Below are positions 10,235-16,702 of a DNA stretch of 64,000 bases, piece by piece. The DNA is taken from positions 682,001-746,000 of the forward strand of contig NZ_LR593886.1 in assembly GCF_901538265.1 (NCBI RefSeq), read 5' to 3'. The stretch comes from Gemmata massiliana (GTDB lineage: Bacteria > Planctomycetota > Planctomycetia > Gemmatales > Gemmataceae). The position numbers and the translations under genes were made by a program. The notes beneath the pieces were generated by a model that saw nothing but the letters and a program-made list of their open reading frames with translations, had not been told where the DNA came from and did not search any database. The number at the start of each line of letters is the position of its first letter. Position 1 is the first letter of the stretch.

Positions 10235-11569
10235 ATGGAAGCCATTACGACCACCAGTGTCGCCCACAAGGTTCGCCGGACTGTCCTCCTTCAAGACGGT
10301 ACCGGGCTAACGGACGGGCGACTCCTCGACTCCTTCATCGAACACCAAGACGGCGACGCCTTCGCCACTCTGGTTCGGCGCCACGGGCCGATGGTGTGGG
10401 GCGTCTGCCGCCGACTCCTCGACCAGCATGACGCCGAAGATGCGTTCCAGGCGACGTTTCTCGTCCTCGTTCGCAAGGCCGCGTCCGTCGTGCCGCGGGA
10501 GTGCGTTGGTAACTGGCTCTACGGGGTCGCTCGTCAGACTGCGCTACAAGGGCGGCGGACATCTGCACGACGAAAAGGACGAGAGACACGGGAGGCTGAC
10601 GTGGCGGAATTGCCCGTGCGGGAAGATGCCGACCGGTGCGATCTACACCTGTTGCTCGACCAGGAGTTGAGCCGCTTGCCCGACCGGTATCGCACCGTCG
10701 TCGTGATGTGCGACTTGGAAGGGAACACCCGCAAGGAAACGGCGCGGCAACTCGGTGTACCGGAGGGATCGGTGGCGGGTTGGCTGGCGAGGGGACGGGC
10801 GACGCTGGCGAAGCGGCTCGCCCGACAGGGCGTTTCACTGCCTGCTGGGATTTTGGCGACGGCGCTGGGGCAAGCGGCGGTGGGACGTGTGCCGCCCTCA
10901 GTGGTGAGTTCCACGATTGGAGCCGCACGCATTTATACGACTGGGCAAGTAACTGCGGAATTGATTTCGATGAGGGTCATTGCTCTCACGGAAGGAGTGC
11001 TGAAAGCCATGACGGTGTCCAAACTCAAGCTCGTGACGGCGGTGTTGTTCGCTGCGGTCTGCTTCGTTGGCGGTGTCGCGGCGGCTCTACCCCCAGCGGT
11101 GGGCCAACCACCGACCGCCGAGAAGAAGGTCGAGACCGCCAAGTCACCAGCGGGTGAAACTCCGCAAAGCAAGACGGACCAGGAAAAGCTCCAAGGTCGT
11201 TGGACCGTCGTGTCGCTCGAGTTGGGTGGTCGGGTTCTCACTCCGGACGAATTGAGTAAAGAGAATGTTGATGACGTGATTTTCGAGGGGGATCGCGTCA
11301 AGCCAACGAGAGCCGATCCCGAAAACTCCCTGTGGCACGGTAAGTACAAGTTGGACGCCCGGCGCGATCCAAAGCAGATCACCGTCTACGACGAAGAACC
11401 CGACAATACGGTGATGACCTTCCGGGGCATTTACACTCTGGACGGCGACACGCTGAAGTGGTGCATGAACCCTGACGGTACCGACGTATGCAGGCCAGAG
11501 GAGTTCAAGACGAAGAAAGGATCGCCGCTCTGCATCTTCACGCTCAAGAGGGTGCCGGCAACGAAGTAG
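10235..11569 (+). CDS. ECF RNA polymerase sigma factor fused to a membrane helix and TIGR03067 domain
   Basis: 444 residues. Sigma-70 region 2 spans about 36-105 (DAFATLVRRHGPMVWGVCRR, DAEDAFQATFLVLV). Region 4 spans about 140-195 (LSRLPDRYRTVVVMCDLEG, then the helix-turn-helix RKETARQLGVPEGSVAGWLA). A transmembrane helix follows at about 264-284. The C-terminal domain at 316-442 (KLQGRWTVVSLELGG to CIFTLKRV) is a TIGR03067-type domain, presumably outside the membrane. The layout suggests a sigma factor tied to the membrane by its own sensor. No separate anti-sigma gene lies beside it. GGGAGGGG directly precedes the ATG. Confidence 0.9.
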   Translation: MEAITTTSVAHKVRRTVLLQDGTGLTDGRLLDSFIEHQDGDAFATLVRRHGPMVWGVCRRLLDQHDAEDAFQATFLVLVRKAASVVPRECVGNWLYGVARQTALQGRRTSARRKGRETREADVAELPVREDADRCDLHLLLDQELSRLPDRYRTVVVMCDLEGNTRKETARQLGVPEGSVAGWLARGRATLAKRLARQGVSLPAGILATALGQAAVGRVPPSVVSSTIGAARIYTTGQVTAELISMRVIALTEGVLKAMTVSKLKLVTAVLFAAVCFVGGVAAALPPAVGQPPTAEKKVETAKSPAGETPQSKTDQEKLQGRWTVVSLELGGRVLTPDELSKENVDDVIFEGDRVKPTRADPENSLWHGKYKLDARRDPKQITVYDEEPDNTVMTFRGIYTLDGDTLKWCMNPDGTDVCRPEEFKTKKGSPLCIFTLKRVPATK

Positions 11570-11603: not shown

Positions 11604-13160
11604 TCACGGCTTGCTCATCCCCACGAAGCTGCCGTCGTTGTCGCGGGCCAAAGCCCAGAGGAACGCGCCGACTTCGACGCTCTCGAAGTAGAACCCGACC
11701 GCGTTGATGCGGACCTTCGGTTGGCCCACAGCCGGGCGGTTCCACGAGCGGTCGAGCGTATCACGCACGTGCTTGCCCAGGATCGTTCCTTGCTCCGTTT
11801 CCGAGAGCGGCGGGTTCGCCCGTTCTTGGGCTGGGGTCAGTCCGGGGCCGCTCGTCGGGAGGCCGTCGGAAAACAGGTAGATCGTGTCGAGTCCGTTGGG
11901 GCGCAGGGCAAACGCTTTCTCGAACGCCGCGAACACGTTCGTGTCGTCCACAGGTTTCACCTTGAGGAGTGCCGTCCGTGCGTCCTCGACCGACCTCTCG
12001 CCCGCGAACGTCCGCCACTCTCCGCTGTCGAACAACCACCGGGCCGAACTCGAAAACACGATCACCTGGTACTGCTCCAGCGTGGGGATGCTCCGCATCA
12101 CCTTGCACACGGTTTCGATCACCAGGGGCCACTTGGTGCTGTCGAGCGTCTGGAGGTCGCGCTTGCCCATGCTCCCGGACATGTCCACGAGGAACACGAC
12201 CCGTTTGCCGGTCATCGCGACCCCGGCGAACCGCGACTCGGAGTCCTTCTGGAATTTGTTGTACTTGTCGGCCAGTTTCGCCTTGTCGCCCTGAAGATCG
12301 ATGATGGTGACGTTCGCATCGTCGACCTTCCTGGTGAGGTCTTTGATCTGCGCGCGGGCGGTACCCAGTTCTTCGCCGGCCTTCGCCATGCCCGCTTTCG
12401 CCGCGGCCAATTCCTCGGCCATTCCCTTCGCCGCGGCCCGCGCTTCGTCGAGTTTCGCGTCGAGTGCCTTTTGTGTCGCACGGAGCCGGGCTTCGAGGTC
12501 CGTCAGTTCCTTTTGTGCGGTGCTCACGCGGGCTTCCATTGCGAGGCGCTCGTCGTCCTTCGTGCGCACGAGCCGCTGGAGCCCGTCCACTTGCGCCGCT
12601 GTCGAGGCATCCTTCTTCGTCAGTGTTTCGATGTCCCTTTGTCGCTTCTTGAGCAACAGGTCCGCGTCGGTCATCTCCGCGCGCGCGGTCGCGAGTTCCT
12701 TGGCGGTCGCGCCGGCTTTCTTCTCAATTGCAGCGAGGTCCAGTTGGGTCGCGTCGAGTCGCTCCTGGGCCGCTTTCGCTTCGTCGCGTGCAACGGCGAG
12801 TTTGCGCCCGGTTTCGTCCTTCTCGGTGCGAGCCAGTTTGAGTTGATCCGCGAGTTGCTTCGCTTCGTCCACCAACTTGAGGCGCACGCCTTCGAGTTCG
12901 GTCAGCGCTGCAGCAAGTTTTCCGCGTTCGGCCTGTTCGGACGTGAGCTTCAGTTTGGTCGAATCGAGCGCGGCCAGCGCCGCGGCGAGCTTCTTGTCGG
13001 TGTTTTCCAGGTCCAGGAGCGCGGTGCGGTTCGCCTTCGCGCTCTCGGTGGCCATCCGGCTGTTGAGGAGGAACAGGAGCGTGACGCAGCCGAGGGCGCA
13101 GCAGAACACGTCCAGCATCCACATGCTGACCAGGGTCGGCTGCTTGTGGCGAACGCGCAT
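11604..13160 (-). CDS. Membrane-anchored coiled-coil protein with C-terminal von Willebrand A domain
   Basis: 518 residues. A single membrane helix lies near the N-terminus (SMWMLDVFCCALGCVTLLFL, residues 12-31), with an Asp at position 17 inside it. A long coiled coil follows at about residues 35-305. A vWA domain begins at VVFLVDMSGSMG with an intact MIDAS (D326, S328, S330). An Asp in the single helix next to an ExbB/TolQ partner recalls the ExbD/TolR/MotB arrangement, though no OmpA-like domain is present. It is the last gene of a three-gene operon, 14 bases after the Hsp70-fold gene. Function is inferred only from context. Confidence 0.8.
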   Translation of the reverse strand: MRVRHKQPTLVSMWMLDVFCCALGCVTLLFLLNSRMATESAKANRTALLDLENTDKKLAAALAALDSTKLKLTSEQAERGKLAAALTELEGVRLKLVDEAKQLADQLKLARTEKDETGRKLAVARDEAKAAQERLDATQLDLAAIEKKAGATAKELATARAEMTDADLLLKKRQRDIETLTKKDASTAAQVDGLQRLVRTKDDERLAMEARVSTAQKELTDLEARLRATQKALDAKLDEARAAAKGMAEELAAAKAGMAKAGEELGTARAQIKDLTRKVDDANVTIIDLQGDKAKLADKYNKFQKDSESRFAGVAMTGKRVVFLVDMSGSMGKRDLQTLDSTKWPLVIETVCKVMRSIPTLEQYQVIVFSSSARWLFDSGEWRTFAGERSVEDARTALLKVKPVDDTNVFAAFEKAFALRPNGLDTIYLFSDGLPTSGPGLTPAQERANPPLSETEQGTILGKHVRDTLDRSWNRPAVGQPKVRINAVGFYFESVEVGAFLWALARDNDGSFVGMSKP

Positions 13161-13174
13161 AGCTCCTCCGGGTG

Positions 13175-14422
13175 TCAGCCGCCGGTCCGCGGGGCGGCGG
13201 GCTTCTTCGCGGCTTCGGTGAACGCGGTCGAATCCTTCGGCAGCGGGATCACGCTATCCAGGTGCGCGCGAGGCAAGTTCTCGGCGAGCCAGCGCGGAAC
13301 GAGTGCTGCAGTCGCGGTCGCAATCGCGTTCGGAGGTAGGATCTCGACCGCGGTCCCCTCCTGCGTGTTCGCGTGGACCGCACGCACGAACCCCGGGAGC
13401 CGGGCCGCTGCGTCCGTCAGCCACACCGCGCGAGGGGGTTCGGCCAGTCCGATACCGGAGACGAAATCGCGGACCGAATCCCCGGTCAGCCGCGCGAGTG
13501 TACTGCAATGCGCTTCGACCTCTTCCGGCTGTTGCAGCACGTCCTGGAACCAGTGGGCCGTGCGCACGGTGAGACTCATGCGCTGCCCGGCGCGGGCGCG
13601 ATCGAGGGCCTCGTCGAGTTGCTCGAAGAGCGCCTGTTCCGCGTCGGCGGAATCGCGCGGGTCGCGCCGACACAGACGAACGCACCGGTCCGAGATCCCG
13701 TCCAGGAGCCGGTCCTTCCACGCCTTGACCGATAACCGCGGCCACACCGCCGAGCCGACCAAGCGCACGAGATCGCGTTCAACAGAGACGAGCGCCGCGG
13801 AGCAGGCGAACTCGTCCGCGTCGAGCACGATGACCGCACCGGGACCGCCGGACGCGGGCCGGAGCGGGACCACCCAGTCCGCGCTCGTGGCTTGAGGCGC
13901 GGCCGGTTTCCCGGTCAAAAGTGTACCGGCTCGGTCCGCGGCCAGGGCCAGTGCCCCCACCGCAGTACCCTTCAACGGGAATTTAACGCGCGCGGCTGTT
14001 GCCCCCACGCGCGCGACCTGTGCGGGGCCGAGGTATACGGGAAGCGAGAGCACCACCGCTTCGGACTCGTGTGCGACGGGACCGCGCATCCGCTCGAAGA
14101 CAATGCCGAGCGCGGATTCCGCGTTCAGCGTGTGCCGACCGAGCTTCCACTCGCGCGTTTGCCCGAGCGCCGGGAGGAAGTTGGAACAAACCGCGTGCGG
14201 CGCCTTGCGGCACAGCGCGACGCCCGTGCGCCCGATTTCGGGAACGCGCCGATCACCGGCAATGAACTGTGCGAGCTCCGCGTCCGGCTCGTCGAAAATG
14301 AGCGTGCGCGGCTTCCCGCCAACGGCTTCCGCCAGAGCGCGGCTCGCGGTGAGGTCGATACCGACCGACCGCGTGCGATCGTGAACCGGAGCTTGCTTAC
14401 GAGACCACAGCATTCGGTACAC
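13175..14422 (-). CDS. Hsp70/actin-fold protein, no substrate-binding domain
   Basis: 415 residues. The N-terminus carries a phosphate-1-like loop, SVGIDLTASRALAEA, which resembles the GIDLGTT motif of Hsp70/actin ATPases but lacks the canonical GTT. The length fits a nucleotide-binding domain alone; DnaK is about 640. Helical and strand segments of the right order follow, but I cannot confirm the second phosphate loop or the adenosine motif by eye. It is the middle gene of an operon, 61 bases after the ExbB-like gene and 14 before the vWA gene. The fold is a moderate-confidence call; ATPase activity is uncertain. Confidence 0.5.
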   Translation of the reverse strand: MYRMLWSRKQAPVHDRTRSVGIDLTASRALAEAVGGKPRTLIFDEPDAELAQFIAGDRRVPEIGRTGVALCRKAPHAVCSNFLPALGQTREWKLGRHTLNAESALGIVFERMRGPVAHESEAVVLSLPVYLGPAQVARVGATAARVKFPLKGTAVGALALAADRAGTLLTGKPAAPQATSADWVVPLRPASGGPGAVIVLDADEFACSAALVSVERDLVRLVGSAVWPRLSVKAWKDRLLDGISDRCVRLCRRDPRDSADAEQALFEQLDEALDRARAGQRMSLTVRTAHWFQDVLQQPEEVEAHCSTLARLTGDSVRDFVSGIGLAEPPRAVWLTDAAARLPGFVRAVHANTQEGTAVEILPPNAIATATAALVPRWLAENLPRAHLDSVIPLPKDSTAFTEAAKKPAAPRTGG

Positions 14423-14483
14423 CGTTGTTGGGGTCGTTATCTGCCGGACCGCCCACCCGTCGGACTGCTACTACCGCAAAAAC

Positions 14484-15374
14484 TCACACGCCCGCGTGTT
14501 CCGCGGCCGGGTCGTAGAGTCGCAGTAACAGGTGCTCTTGGCAGTATTGCTGAGCGTCCGTGACGAGCGTCTCTTCGGCCCGCTGCACCATGTGAACGAA
14601 GTACATCAGCCCCAGGCTCAGCACGAGCGCCACGAGCGTGCAGTCGAACGCGATCTTCAGTTGGTCCTTCGCCTGACGGGTGAACTCCGCGATGTCGGGG
14701 TCGTTCGCGCCGAACGCGCCGCCGAGCCCGCGGACCGTCCCGACGAACCCGATCGCCGGGATCGCCCACGCGAGGTAATGCACTGTGGACATCCCCGTGA
14801 TCAACCGCGACAACTCGACGTCGGCTTGGTTGCGGACCACCTCGGCCACGTCCGTTGCGGACTTACTGATCGCGAACTTGCCCAGCCCGAGCCGGATCAT
14901 GTTGGCGAGTACGAACGGCCGGCCCGCGGTGACTTGTTCCACTTTTCGCGCGAGCGGGCGGGCGTCCTCCGGCAGAATCCGCGCACCCTCTTCGGTGGGT
15001 AGTAACTCCAGCCCGAACGCCCGGCGCTGGCGCAACACTTCGCGGTACCGGCTCTGGAGGATGAGAATTGCCCACACCGCGCAGACGTAACAGAGTACCT
15101 GCTCGAACCCGAGGAGCAGCCGCCCCAGGCGCTCCGGTGTCCACCGGGCCGCGAGTTCGTCGCGCGATTCGGGGCTGCCCATGATCTGCCACAACGGGGT
15201 GATCACCCCGGCGACGATGAGCAGCGCGATCACGAGCAGCAGCCACTCGCGCGCGGGGCGATGGGACGCGGGTATCGACATCAACCGTCCCTCGAACGCG
15301 GAACCGCGCGGCCACCGGACCGCGCGCAATCCCAGAGCGATATTGTCGGTCCCCAACTGTCGGGCCGCAAGCAC
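14484..15374 (-). CDS. MotA/TolQ/ExbB-family proton channel protein
   Basis: 296 residues from a GTG at 15374, or 265 from an ATG at 15281 that has a better ribosome site (GAGGGACGG). Membrane segments lie at about 43-65, 85-108, 200-222 and 243-265. The family motif is clear in AIPAIGFVGTVRGLGGAFG, and the last helix ends in MYFVHMVQRAEE. Such proteins form the ion-conducting ring that powers TonB, Tol-Pal or flagellar stators. The usual small ExbD/TolR partner is absent; the vWA protein two genes downstream may fill that place. It is the first gene of the operon and is divergent from the VCBS-repeat gene. Confidence 0.85.
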   Translation of the reverse strand: MLAARQLGTDNIALGLRAVRWPRGSAFEGRLMSIPASHRPAREWLLLVIALLIVAGVITPLWQIMGSPESRDELAARWTPERLGRLLLGFEQVLCYVCAVWAILILQSRYREVLRQRRAFGLELLPTEEGARILPEDARPLARKVEQVTAGRPFVLANMIRLGLGKFAISKSATDVAEVVRNQADVELSRLITGMSTVHYLAWAIPAIGFVGTVRGLGGAFGANDPDIAEFTRQAKDQLKIAFDCTLVALVLSLGLMYFVHMVQRAEETLVTDAQQYCQEHLLLRLYDPAAEHAGV

Positions 15375-15442
15375 CTGTGTACCGAACGGGCCGACATGTT
15401 AAGCTGAGTGCCCCGTTTTCACCTTACGGAGAACGACCCACC

Positions 15443-16702
15443 GTGCGCTATTTACTCTCCGTGCTCGTCGCACTCGCCGCACCTCCCCTATTCGCGGCGG
15501 ACCTCCCGAAATTCAAAACTCAGGAAATCGATACGGGCCTGAAAATCGGGTACGCCGTCATCACCGCGGACATTGATGGCGACAAGAAGCTCGACATCGT
15601 GGTCGTCGATCAGCACAAGATCGTGTGGTACCGGAACCCCGGCCAAACCGACGCCCCGTGGAAGAAGCACGTCATCCTCGACGGCAAAACGCGCCCGGAC
15701 AACGTGTGCATCGCGCCCATCGACATTGACGGCGACGGGTTGCCGGAACTCGTGGTCGGCGCCGCGTGGAAGCCGTTCGACACCGCGACCGCGGCGCAAC
15801 TCGTCTGGCTCAAGCGCGGGAAGAACGTCACCGACGAATGGACGATGCACGAACTGCCGTGCGACGAACCCACGGTTCACCGCGTCCGGGTGTTCGACAT
15901 TGATGGCGACGGCAAACCGGAGATCGTTCACGTCCCGCTGATGGGGCGCGGGTCGAGCGCGAAGGGTAACTGGACCGATGGCAAACCGGTGCGCATCGTC
16001 GCACTCAAGATTCCCGCGAAAGACCCGGAGAAAAAGGAGAACTGGAAGACAGAAGTGCTTTCGGAAGAACTGAACGTCGCCCACAATTTCTGGCCCGAAC
16101 ACCCGCAAGCGGCCGGGCGTGAACATCCCACCCCGAACATTTATGTGACCAGTTACGACGGCGTTCACGTTCTGTCGGAAGAAAAGGGGAAGTGGACGAC
16201 AAACAAGATCGGGGTGGGTAATCAAGCGAACCCGAAGAGTAATCGCGGTGCGAGCGAGATCAAGGTCGGCCGCGTCGGAGGGCGCCTCGGCACCATCGCC
16301 ACAATTGAGCCGTGGCACGGGAACCAAGTGGTCGTCTACACGGCGCCGGAGAAGGCGGGCGAGAAGTTGTGGGAGCGGCACGTCATCGACGAACAACTCC
16401 GCTGGGGCCACGCGGTCTGGTTCGCGGACCTCGACGGCGACAAGGTCGATGAACTCATCATCGGCGTGCGCGACGACCCGAACCCGAAGGCGGGCGACAC
16501 CTTCAAGGAGCGCCGCGGGGTGCGCGTCTACAAATGCACCGACGGTAAAGGGGCGCGGTGGGAGCGGACGATTCTGGACGACGGCGGGGTGGCGGTCGAA
16601 GACCTGACCGCGGCCGATCTCGATGGTGACGGCAAGGTGGACATCATCGCCGTGGGTCGACAAACCGGGAACGCGCGCATCTACTGGAATCAGGGAAAGT
16701 GA
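15443..16702 (+). CDS. Secreted VCBS/FG-GAP repeat protein
   Basis: 419 residues from a GTG at 15443, chosen because GGAG lies about 10 bases upstream and a clean signal peptide follows (RYLLSVLVALAAPPLFA). The body is a seven-bladed-type propeller with calcium-binding loops repeated as DIDGDKKLDIVV, DIDGDGLPELVV, DIDGDGKPEIVH, DLDGDKVDELII and DLDGDGKVDIIA. Such proteins are exported and bind ligands or calcium; no catalytic domain is attached. A strong hairpin at 16714-16741 follows the stop. Confidence 0.88.
   Translation: MRYLLSVLVALAAPPLFAADLPKFKTQEIDTGLKIGYAVITADIDGDKKLDIVVVDQHKIVWYRNPGQTDAPWKKHVILDGKTRPDNVCIAPIDIDGDGLPELVVGAAWKPFDTATAAQLVWLKRGKNVTDEWTMHELPCDEPTVHRVRVFDIDGDGKPEIVHVPLMGRGSSAKGNWTDGKPVRIVALKIPAKDPEKKENWKTEVLSEELNVAHNFWPEHPQAAGREHPTPNIYVTSYDGVHVLSEEKGKWTTNKIGVGNQANPKSNRGASEIKVGRVGGRLGTIATIEPWHGNQVVVYTAPEKAGEKLWERHVIDEQLRWGHAVWFADLDGDKVDELIIGVRDDPNPKAGDTFKERRGVRVYKCTDGKGARWERTILDDGGVAVEDLTAADLDGDGKVDIIAVGRQTGNARIYWNQGK

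Follow-up and report, generated by a model that had tools for sequence, protein, structure and literature searches.

Three adjacent genes of Gemmata massiliana probably, on balance, encode an ion-driven motor of the 5:2 type, with a vWA protein as its axle and an Hsp70-derived pseudo-ATPase as a cytoplasmic regulatory subunit, a function that we infer. Ion-driven 5:2 motors drive flagella and gliding as well as the Tol and Ton systems; to our knowledge, little is understood of how they are controlled from the cytoplasm except in flagella. If our reading is correct, we know of no earlier case of an Hsp70-fold protein as part of an ion-driven motor, and the operon is a candidate new use of the Hsp70 fold. 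With a homologous partner in two phyla, and with FHA fusions or FHA/kinase neighbors in several lineages, the Hsp70-fold protein encoded within the operon is a testable candidate motor regulator. Reconstitution would be simplest with the Gemmatales operon, which has a single gene each for the vWA and the Hsp70-like protein.

As a preliminary description of the sequence had it, three open reading frames lie on the minus strand of the window (the whole stretch of DNA that was analyzed, 64,000 nucleotides), with intergenic gaps of 61 and 14 bases, and their coordinates were borne out. The features are as follows:

14484 to 15281, minus strand: gene 1, MotA/TolQ/ExbB-type channel subunit (PF01618, conserved threonines, hydropathy)
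13175 to 14413, minus strand: gene 2, Hsp70-fold protein, nucleotide-binding half only, degenerate phosphate loops (profile, AlphaFold model, motif comparison)
11604 to 13160, minus strand: gene 3, TM helix, coiled coil and vWA protein of 518 aa (VWA_2, alignments)
13062 to 13133, minus strand: predicted single TM helix of gene 3, residues 10-33, with the D17 codon at 13110-13112 (hydropathy 14-32, conserved residues)
12246 to 13058, minus strand: coiled coil of gene 3, residues about 35-305, some 270 residues (SMC, myosin and tropomyosin chain matches)
11607 to 12206, minus strand: vWA domain of gene 3 with a complete MIDAS, D326, S328, S330 and, as we presume, T407 and D432 (Pfam and alignment)

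The listed frames of genes 1 and 2 open at GTG codons (15374, giving 296 aa, and 14422, giving 415 aa) that are probably too far upstream. The alignment and the codons suggest that the real starts are ATG 15281 for gene 1 (about 265 aa) and ATG 14413 for gene 2 (412 aa). The view that no separate ExbD or OmpA-domain protein accompanies these genes held up: there was no ExbD (PF02472) match in the window, the genome's 4 matches falling in two other loci at about 4.79 and 10.13 Mb, and an OmpA-type peptidoglycan-binding domain was absent from the Pfam matches of all three proteins, gene 3 included.

The identification of gene 1 as a MotA/TolQ/ExbB channel was confirmed by a Pfam match to MotA_ExbB (PF01618; 7.1e-8), whose 32.7 bits exceed the curated cut-off of 22.9. 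Two threonines that may line the pore, T213 and T246 (296-aa numbering), were present in 59 of 60 and in all 60 rows of the alignment, respectively. Both were also invariant in a 13-row alignment that takes in outgroup loci, and we take them to be the counterparts of the E. coli ExbB pore threonines. Hydropathy analysis gave three stretches above threshold (44-62, 87-105 and 245-263), and a fourth hydrophobic stretch at about 199-219, read from the sequence by eye, would give gene 1 a MotA-like four-helix topology. A search of the ExbB profile (A3) against the PDB returned no solved structure at E <= 0.01.

Gene 3 had been described as a helix bearing D17, followed by 270 residues of coiled coil and then a vWA domain whose MIDAS (D326, S328, S330) is intact, and this architecture was recovered in full. 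VWA_2 matched at 1.2e-9, above its Pfam cut-off, and D17, D326, S328, S330, T407 and D432 were invariant in all 60 vWA rows of the alignment. Within the helix, M15, D17, C20, C21, G24 and C25 were each present in 60/60 rows, and D17 was kept in all 11 rows of an alignment that includes 4 outgroup loci; the Asp is therefore conserved among homologues, as had been anticipated. This helix is predicted to be a transpore helix like those of ExbD, TolR and MotB. No match to the ExbD/TolR domain PF02472 was found in gene 3.

Gene 2 alone matched no credible Pfam family, its best hit being AAA_16 at 0.1, far below the cut-off for that family. A profile of the gene 2 family (A1) matched DnaK chains at 5e-17, and 7 of 45 homologues gave Pfam HSP70 matches at E <= 0.1. 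An AlphaFold model built on a 52-row alignment (pLDDT 90.8, pTM 0.88; an alignment-free model with a pLDDT of 33.8 was discarded) superimposed on Hsp70 domains with a VIA Z of 35.1 and an rmsd of 2.6 over 346 residues. The predicted structure supports an Hsp70 nucleotide-binding-domain fold. No substrate-binding domain was found in gene 2, the Hsp70 nucleotide-binding-domain matches spanning residues 14-384 of the 413-residue model. The middle gene is thus Hsp70-like without a substrate-binding half, in agreement with the preliminary description. Its further designation as an Hsp70-like ATPase stands as to the fold, but the ATPase part is doubtful, since the Hsp70 phosphate loops GIDLGTT and DLGGGT are replaced by GIDLTAS and LDADEFA. 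Because of these replacements, a pseudo-ATPase or nucleotide-sensing scaffold appears likelier than an ATPase. Three Hsp70 proteins compared from the same genome retain both canonical loops. Ribosome-associated-complex chains, taken from their entry titles to be the atypical Hsp70 Ssz1, ranked first in the structural comparison, with DnaK, mortalin and BiP level with them to within 1 Z unit. Ssz1 partners a J-protein and, going by the title of entry 6sr6, has a substrate-binding domain, whereas the gene 2 protein lacks both that domain and the Hsp70 phosphate signatures.

Gene order was retained in relatives, as had been anticipated: in 63 of the 81 family genomes (counted by hand), a single contig carried the trio in the same order and on the same strand. 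In a second, named genome collection, whose genomes overlap in part with those of the first so that the two are not independent, the trio was found at 52 of 79 loci, a count that includes one locus with a broken ExbB frame (L141). The other 27 loci comprised 12 with a generic vWA match only, 10 that lacked upstream genes (in 9, the vWA gene lay less than 1.5 kb from the sequence start), and 5 outgroup planctomycete loci with ExbB and vWA only, the Hsp70 gene being absent. Two family genomes, both listed as 100% complete (G014 and G029), gave no match to gene 2 or gene 3, and a sister-family genome (locus L207) had the vWA gene without the ExbB and Hsp70-like genes. A second vWA match, lacking the Asp helix, was seen in one of 60 family loci (L072, also L209).

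An Hsp70-like gene also immediately followed ExbB in 12 of 21 Verrucomicrobiota loci, with vWA genes coming next in 11 of these 12. These 12 genes were the sole profile matches among 760 ORFs. The Gemmatales and Verrucomicrobiota Hsp70-like sets matched each other at a profile-profile E of 5e-29, and a profile of the 12 Verrucomicrobiota proteins alone matched DnaK at 9e-10 and Ssb1 at 2e-9; one such protein, searched by itself, matched nothing up to E 1 in Pfam or up to E 0.1 in the PDB. A tree united the two Hsp70-like groups with support of 100/100, but on a long branch (1.96), and the backbone of the ExbB tree was without resolution. The remaining Verrucomicrobiota loci had an ExbB-vWA pair without an Hsp70 gene (3/21), another or unrecognized gene in the Hsp70 slot (4/21), or neither partner (2/21: L247, at a contig end, and L255). 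The helix motif with its Asp was present in all 35 Verrucomicrobiota vWA proteins found, and DxSxS in 6 of the 18 in first position. Plasmid searches returned nothing for the vWA relatives and one weak Rhizobium match for the ExbB relatives. With the pair alone at the 5 outgroup and 3 Verrucomicrobiota loci, the Hsp70 gene is not obligatory for the ExbB-vWA pair.

At 10 of the 52 trio loci, an FHA domain was fused C-terminally to the Hsp70-like protein, and the Hsp70-like proteins of Verrucomicrobiota have a C-terminal extension that matched FHA weakly (27%). Among outgroup Planctomycetota, the gene for an FHA protein lay directly upstream of the ExbB-vWA pair at 4 loci, and at 3 loci protein kinase genes occupied the first or second position upstream of ExbB. 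The FHA domains of the Hsp70-like relatives suggest a role in signaling.

Families, fold, conserved residues, gene order, phosphate-loop loss and FHA fusions were established by sequence comparison or prediction, and they can be assembled into the following mechanism. Five copies of the MotA/TolQ/ExbB protein would form a ring, and two vWA proteins an axle whose N-terminal helices would sit inside the ring pore, D17 being the putative ion-binding residue opposite the ring of pore threonines. The coiled coil would transmit torque or pull through the periplasm, where the metal-dependent vWA head may hold a ligand in the wall or outer membrane. At the cytoplasmic face of the ring, the Hsp70-fold protein would act as a clutch, nucleotide-sensing or purely structural, or as an assembly factor, and the C-terminal FHA domain that it carries in several lineages would couple it to Ser/Thr-phosphorylation signals. 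As first proposed, an ion-driven ring whose partner is the coiled-coil/vWA protein is well supported as a prediction; the adhesion role and the location in the periplasm proposed with it are putative. More tentatively, a distinct Hsp70 branch without a substrate-binding domain or canonical phosphate loops may have become the dedicated, phospho-signal-responsive clutch of TolQ-vWA rotary motors in at least two phyla.

The Hsp70-fold protein could instead be a chaperone-like assembly factor, namely a cytoplasmic holdase for the coiled-coil protein prior to export, and not a motor regulator. Both its fold and the location of its gene between those for ExbB and vWA would fit such a role, and passages of PMC7159879 associate Hsp70 proteins lacking a substrate-binding domain with other multi-component systems. 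However, we regard this role as unlikely given the missing substrate-binding half, the lost phosphate loops, the FHA domains of relatives, which point to signaling, and the lack of the Hsp70 gene at some loci with the same partners. It is also conceivable, if improbable, that the ring is a gated ion channel or sensor and not a rotary motor, with a vWA ligand gating it and the Hsp70/FHA part relaying to kinases. While FHA and protein-kinase genes adjoin related pairs, and no TonB/TolA-like transducer was found among the three genes, the well-studied MotA/ExbB/TolQ relatives are motors (family knowledge and parts of PMC9389320), and the residues of the motor mechanism, the Asp and the threonines, are retained.

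We consider it very improbable that the operon is an anti-phage defense module like Zorya, in which ZorA/ZorB act with cytoplasmic effectors. Gene 1 matched ZorA weakly (E 0.004) and the third component would be cytoplasmic, but none of the three proteins matched a ZorB, ZorC or ZorD model. The single gene order across most family genomes likewise argues against defense, as defense islands are patchy.

The motor that we favor has an already described half. Williams-Jones et al. 2025 (PMC12204202) reported, in silico, TolQ together with vWA proteins that carry an ExbD-like Asp helix, without TolR. The window likewise has a tolQ-like gene, an Asp-helix vWA gene and no adjacent tolR/exbD. Parts of that paper name Proteobacteria and describe heterologous vWA pairs as predominant in the second vWA family; being only predominant, such pairs are not a defining feature. 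Compared by description, our Verrucomicrobiota loci fit this family, pairs included. The window differs in the Hsp70-like gene that intervenes between the ExbB and vWA genes, and in the Gemmatales a lone vWA gene, whose coiled coil runs to ~270 residues, stands in place of a pair encoding shorter vWA proteins. The terms Hsp70, DnaK and chaperone do not occur in the text of PMC12204202 (figures and supplements aside), and our search of the literature, mostly of published open-access papers, found no Hsp70 member of a TolQ-vWA system in print. The statement that no such system had been described thus fails for the TolQ/Asp-helix-vWA half and stands for the Hsp70 member. What is new is the Hsp70 fold, the lost phosphate loops, the FHA-bearing homologues, and the homologous gene after ExbB in Verrucomicrobiota.

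The operon shares the PF01618 ring, the pore-region threonines and the Asp helix of the partner with the MotAB, ExbBD and TolQR 5:2 motors, but its partner instead has a coiled coil and vWA domain and no ExbD/TolR or OmpA match. By description, it also resembles AglRQS/Glt of Myxococcus xanthus, for which part of PMC3169522 gives a TolQ-type motor with GltG, an FHA protein, and a connection to the cytoskeletal MreB; going by the title of another paper, the vWA adhesin CglB belongs to the same motility. In M. xanthus, however, AglQ/S are ExbD/TolR proteins, and the vWA and actin-fold proteins are other gene products.

At L141, a single-frame ExbB-Hsp70 match was not accepted as a fusion, its ExbB part being broken. 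At L146, in a metagenome-assembled genome, ExbB and the Hsp70-like protein share one open frame of 674 aa in which both matches are near full length, which, if the assembly is right, represents a natural fusion.

The three-gene operon is real and conserved. Its minus-strand open reading frames lie in the window sequence as first described, separated by 61 and 14 bases, and two assignments of the preliminary description were borne out by Pfam matches above cut-off, gene 1 encoding a MotA/TolQ/ExbB protein (MotA_ExbB, 7.1e-8; ExbB hereafter) and gene 3 a vWA protein (VWA_2, 1.2e-9). No credible Pfam family was found for the window's Hsp70-like gene 2 protein, and an NCBIfam scan of all three proteins gave nothing above its cut-off. 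Alignment of relatives suggests that the true starts of genes 1 and 2 are ATG 15281 and ATG 14413, respectively. Two plus-strand genes of the window flank the operon:
15377-16702 (+), divergent upstream gene for an FG-GAP beta-propeller protein whose start reads signal-like
10235-11569 (+), apparent ECF-type sigma factor with a membrane helix and C-terminal extension, as read from its translation; convergent with the vWA gene, with 34 bases between the stops

Of 81 Gemmataceae genomes searched, 79 had a gene 1 match (distant paralogues counted too), 71 had the Hsp70-like protein and 72 had gene 3. By hand count from these three search lists, the trio lies in the same order on one contig and one strand in 63/81 genomes. 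Among the named carriers are Zavarzinella formosa (L138), Limnoglobus roseus (L163) and Gemmata sp. IIL30 (L175); gene 2 of the last is 97% identical to that of the window. The 18 genomes without a one-contig trio are G002, G005, G014, G018, G023, G027, G029, G035, G042, G045, G049, G050, G055, G059, G061, G075, G076 and G079, several of which have the parts spread over different contigs. Genes 2 and 3 were unmatched in G014 and G029, both listed as 100% complete; thus, the trio is common, not universal.

Residues were counted in the window and 60 family loci selected for holding the genes, one locus having no ExbB row and another no vWA row. The helix Asp (D17) and the intact MIDAS (D326, S328 and S330) recognized earlier in the window's vWA protein were each present in 60/60 vWA rows, as were T407 and D432, while T213 and T246 of ExbB were present in 59/60 and 60/60 rows, respectively. 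A tandem second vWA gene at L072/L209 has a different helix without the Asp, and its MIDAS reads DAAES.

At E <= 1e-20, the vWA protein was detected in 35 of 148 genomes of the class (31 from Gemmataceae and 4 from a second family of the same order) and was not found in the other 113. The trio was present in 3 of the 4 second-family genomes; at L207, a second-family locus with the vWA gene, the profiles matched neither partner within its 15 kb. Among 149 phylum genomes, G106, G151, G169 and G187 carry vWA directly beside ExbB with no Hsp70 gene between them, and G131 has the pair interrupted by a contig end. A scan of named genomes, some of them the same as those searched above, gave 79 loci, of which 52 hold the trio; in 10 of these the Hsp70 protein is fused to FHA. 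The remainder comprised Hsp70 plus vWA near the start of the available sequence (5 loci), vWA alone (5, of which 4 near the sequence start), a merely generic vWA match (12), and ExbB plus vWA only (5, all outgroup: the contigs of G106, G151, G169 and G187 again, plus G203). Antisense ORFs inside the trio aside, no other gene family occurred in as many as half of the 52 trio loci, the next-commonest neighbour being the divergent FG-GAP gene (in the same position in 19/52, the window's own counted). Records labelled Bacteroidales (L156) and Candidatus Kuenenia (L145) hold a Gemmatales-type trio and are probably mislabelled or mixed assemblies.

The fold of the gene 2 protein was supported by both profiles and a predicted model. 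A profile of Gemmatales Hsp70-like proteins matched DnaK chains at 5e-17, one such match (1.8e-16) spanning positions 11-373 of 390, and Pfam HSP70 was found at E <= 0.1 in 7/45 gene 2 homologues (best 1.7e-8). The AlphaFold model (52-row alignment) reached pLDDT 90.8 and pTM 0.88; its best 50 Foldseek rows were nearly all Hsp70 family by title. The first VIA-align row aligned 346 residues (Z 35.1, rmsd 2.6) and is a chain from the ribosome-associated complex; DnaK, mortalin and BiP scored within 1 Z unit of it. These structural matches span residues 14-384, so the protein has no substrate-binding half. The proposal of an Hsp70-like ATPase holds for the fold but is doubtful as regards ATPase activity, since the phosphate-binding loops are changed: GIDLGTT, kept in 24/24 generic Hsp70 proteins of our tree set, reads GIDLTAS, and DLGGGT reads LDADEFA. 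Because of these changes the protein is likely a pseudo-ATPase, which may bind nucleotide without hydrolysis.

Related loci were found in Verrucomicrobiota. Among 337 genomes, centred on that of L198, 21 had a close ExbB relative (E <= 1e-45). Downstream vWA genes were present in 18 of these loci (two in 17, one in 1), and all 35 proteins matched the helix motif including the Asp. The gene right after ExbB matched the Gemmatales Hsp70 profile in 12/21 loci (E 6e-28 to 2e-5), and none of the rest of the 760 ORFs matched at E <= 0.01; at one of the 12, L245, no downstream vWA gene was seen. L236, L237, L241 and L242 have a gene in this slot without a profile match; three of these proteins, joined with that of L244, itself a weak but positive match, gave 97% in a profile-profile comparison over 190 columns from 4 rows only. 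The vWA gene directly follows ExbB in L238, L239 and L243, L247 lies at a contig end, and neither an Hsp70-like nor a vWA gene was seen at L255. The 12 Verrucomicrobiota proteins matched the Gemmatales set by profile-profile comparison (E 5e-29, 355 columns), and their profile alone matched DnaK (9e-10) and Ssb1 (2e-9). In a tree with 24 generic Hsp70 proteins the two sets grouped together (100/100), but their branch is long and long-branch attraction may be the cause. The DxSxS motif was present in 17/17 second-encoded and 6/18 first-encoded vWA proteins, counts hinting that one head of the pair binds metal and the other is structural; in Gemmatales the single vWA protein would form a homodimer.

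A 2025 paper proposes that a TolQ-like pentamer is partnered by a dimer of Asp-helix vWA proteins (PMC12204202), and the window's ExbB-vWA pair belongs to the same kind. The earlier statement that no described system has this exact set thus stands for the trio, of which our other literature searches found no description, but not for the motor half, which is a variant, itself new, of that recently proposed kind. The words Hsp70, DnaK and chaperone are absent from the paper's text. Interest centres on the Hsp70-fold member, a recurrent component of which no description was found in the literature searched. What the operon products do, that they form a complex and how it would work are all inferred. 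Related ExbB genes at L108, L113, L115, L215, L216 and L217 adjoin one or two proteins with an Asp-bearing N-terminal helix, for which a profile scan gave no clear vWA match; these sequences suggest that Planctomycetota and Verrucomicrobiota have a broader range of transpore-helix motors.

In its set of parts the system is similar to the Myxococcus gliding machinery, where a TolQ-type motor is combined with an FHA protein and connected to the MreB cytoskeleton (PMC3169522); this is a likeness, not membership. A C-terminal FHA domain was present in 7 of 8 gene 2 homologues picked mainly for length. At L146 (5914-7938, +), a single 674-aa open frame joins ExbB (residues 1-270) to the Hsp70-like protein (282-666); it is the sole fusion case, from a metagenome-assembled Gemmatales genome, and may be an assembly error. 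A similar frame at L141 was rejected as a fusion, its ExbB part being broken. In the outgroup planctomycete loci L097, L098, L099 and L100, an FHA protein gene lies immediately upstream of ExbB, the products at the last three also bearing a trypsin-like domain. A protein kinase gene is found upstream of ExbB directly in L112 and two genes away in L098 and L100.
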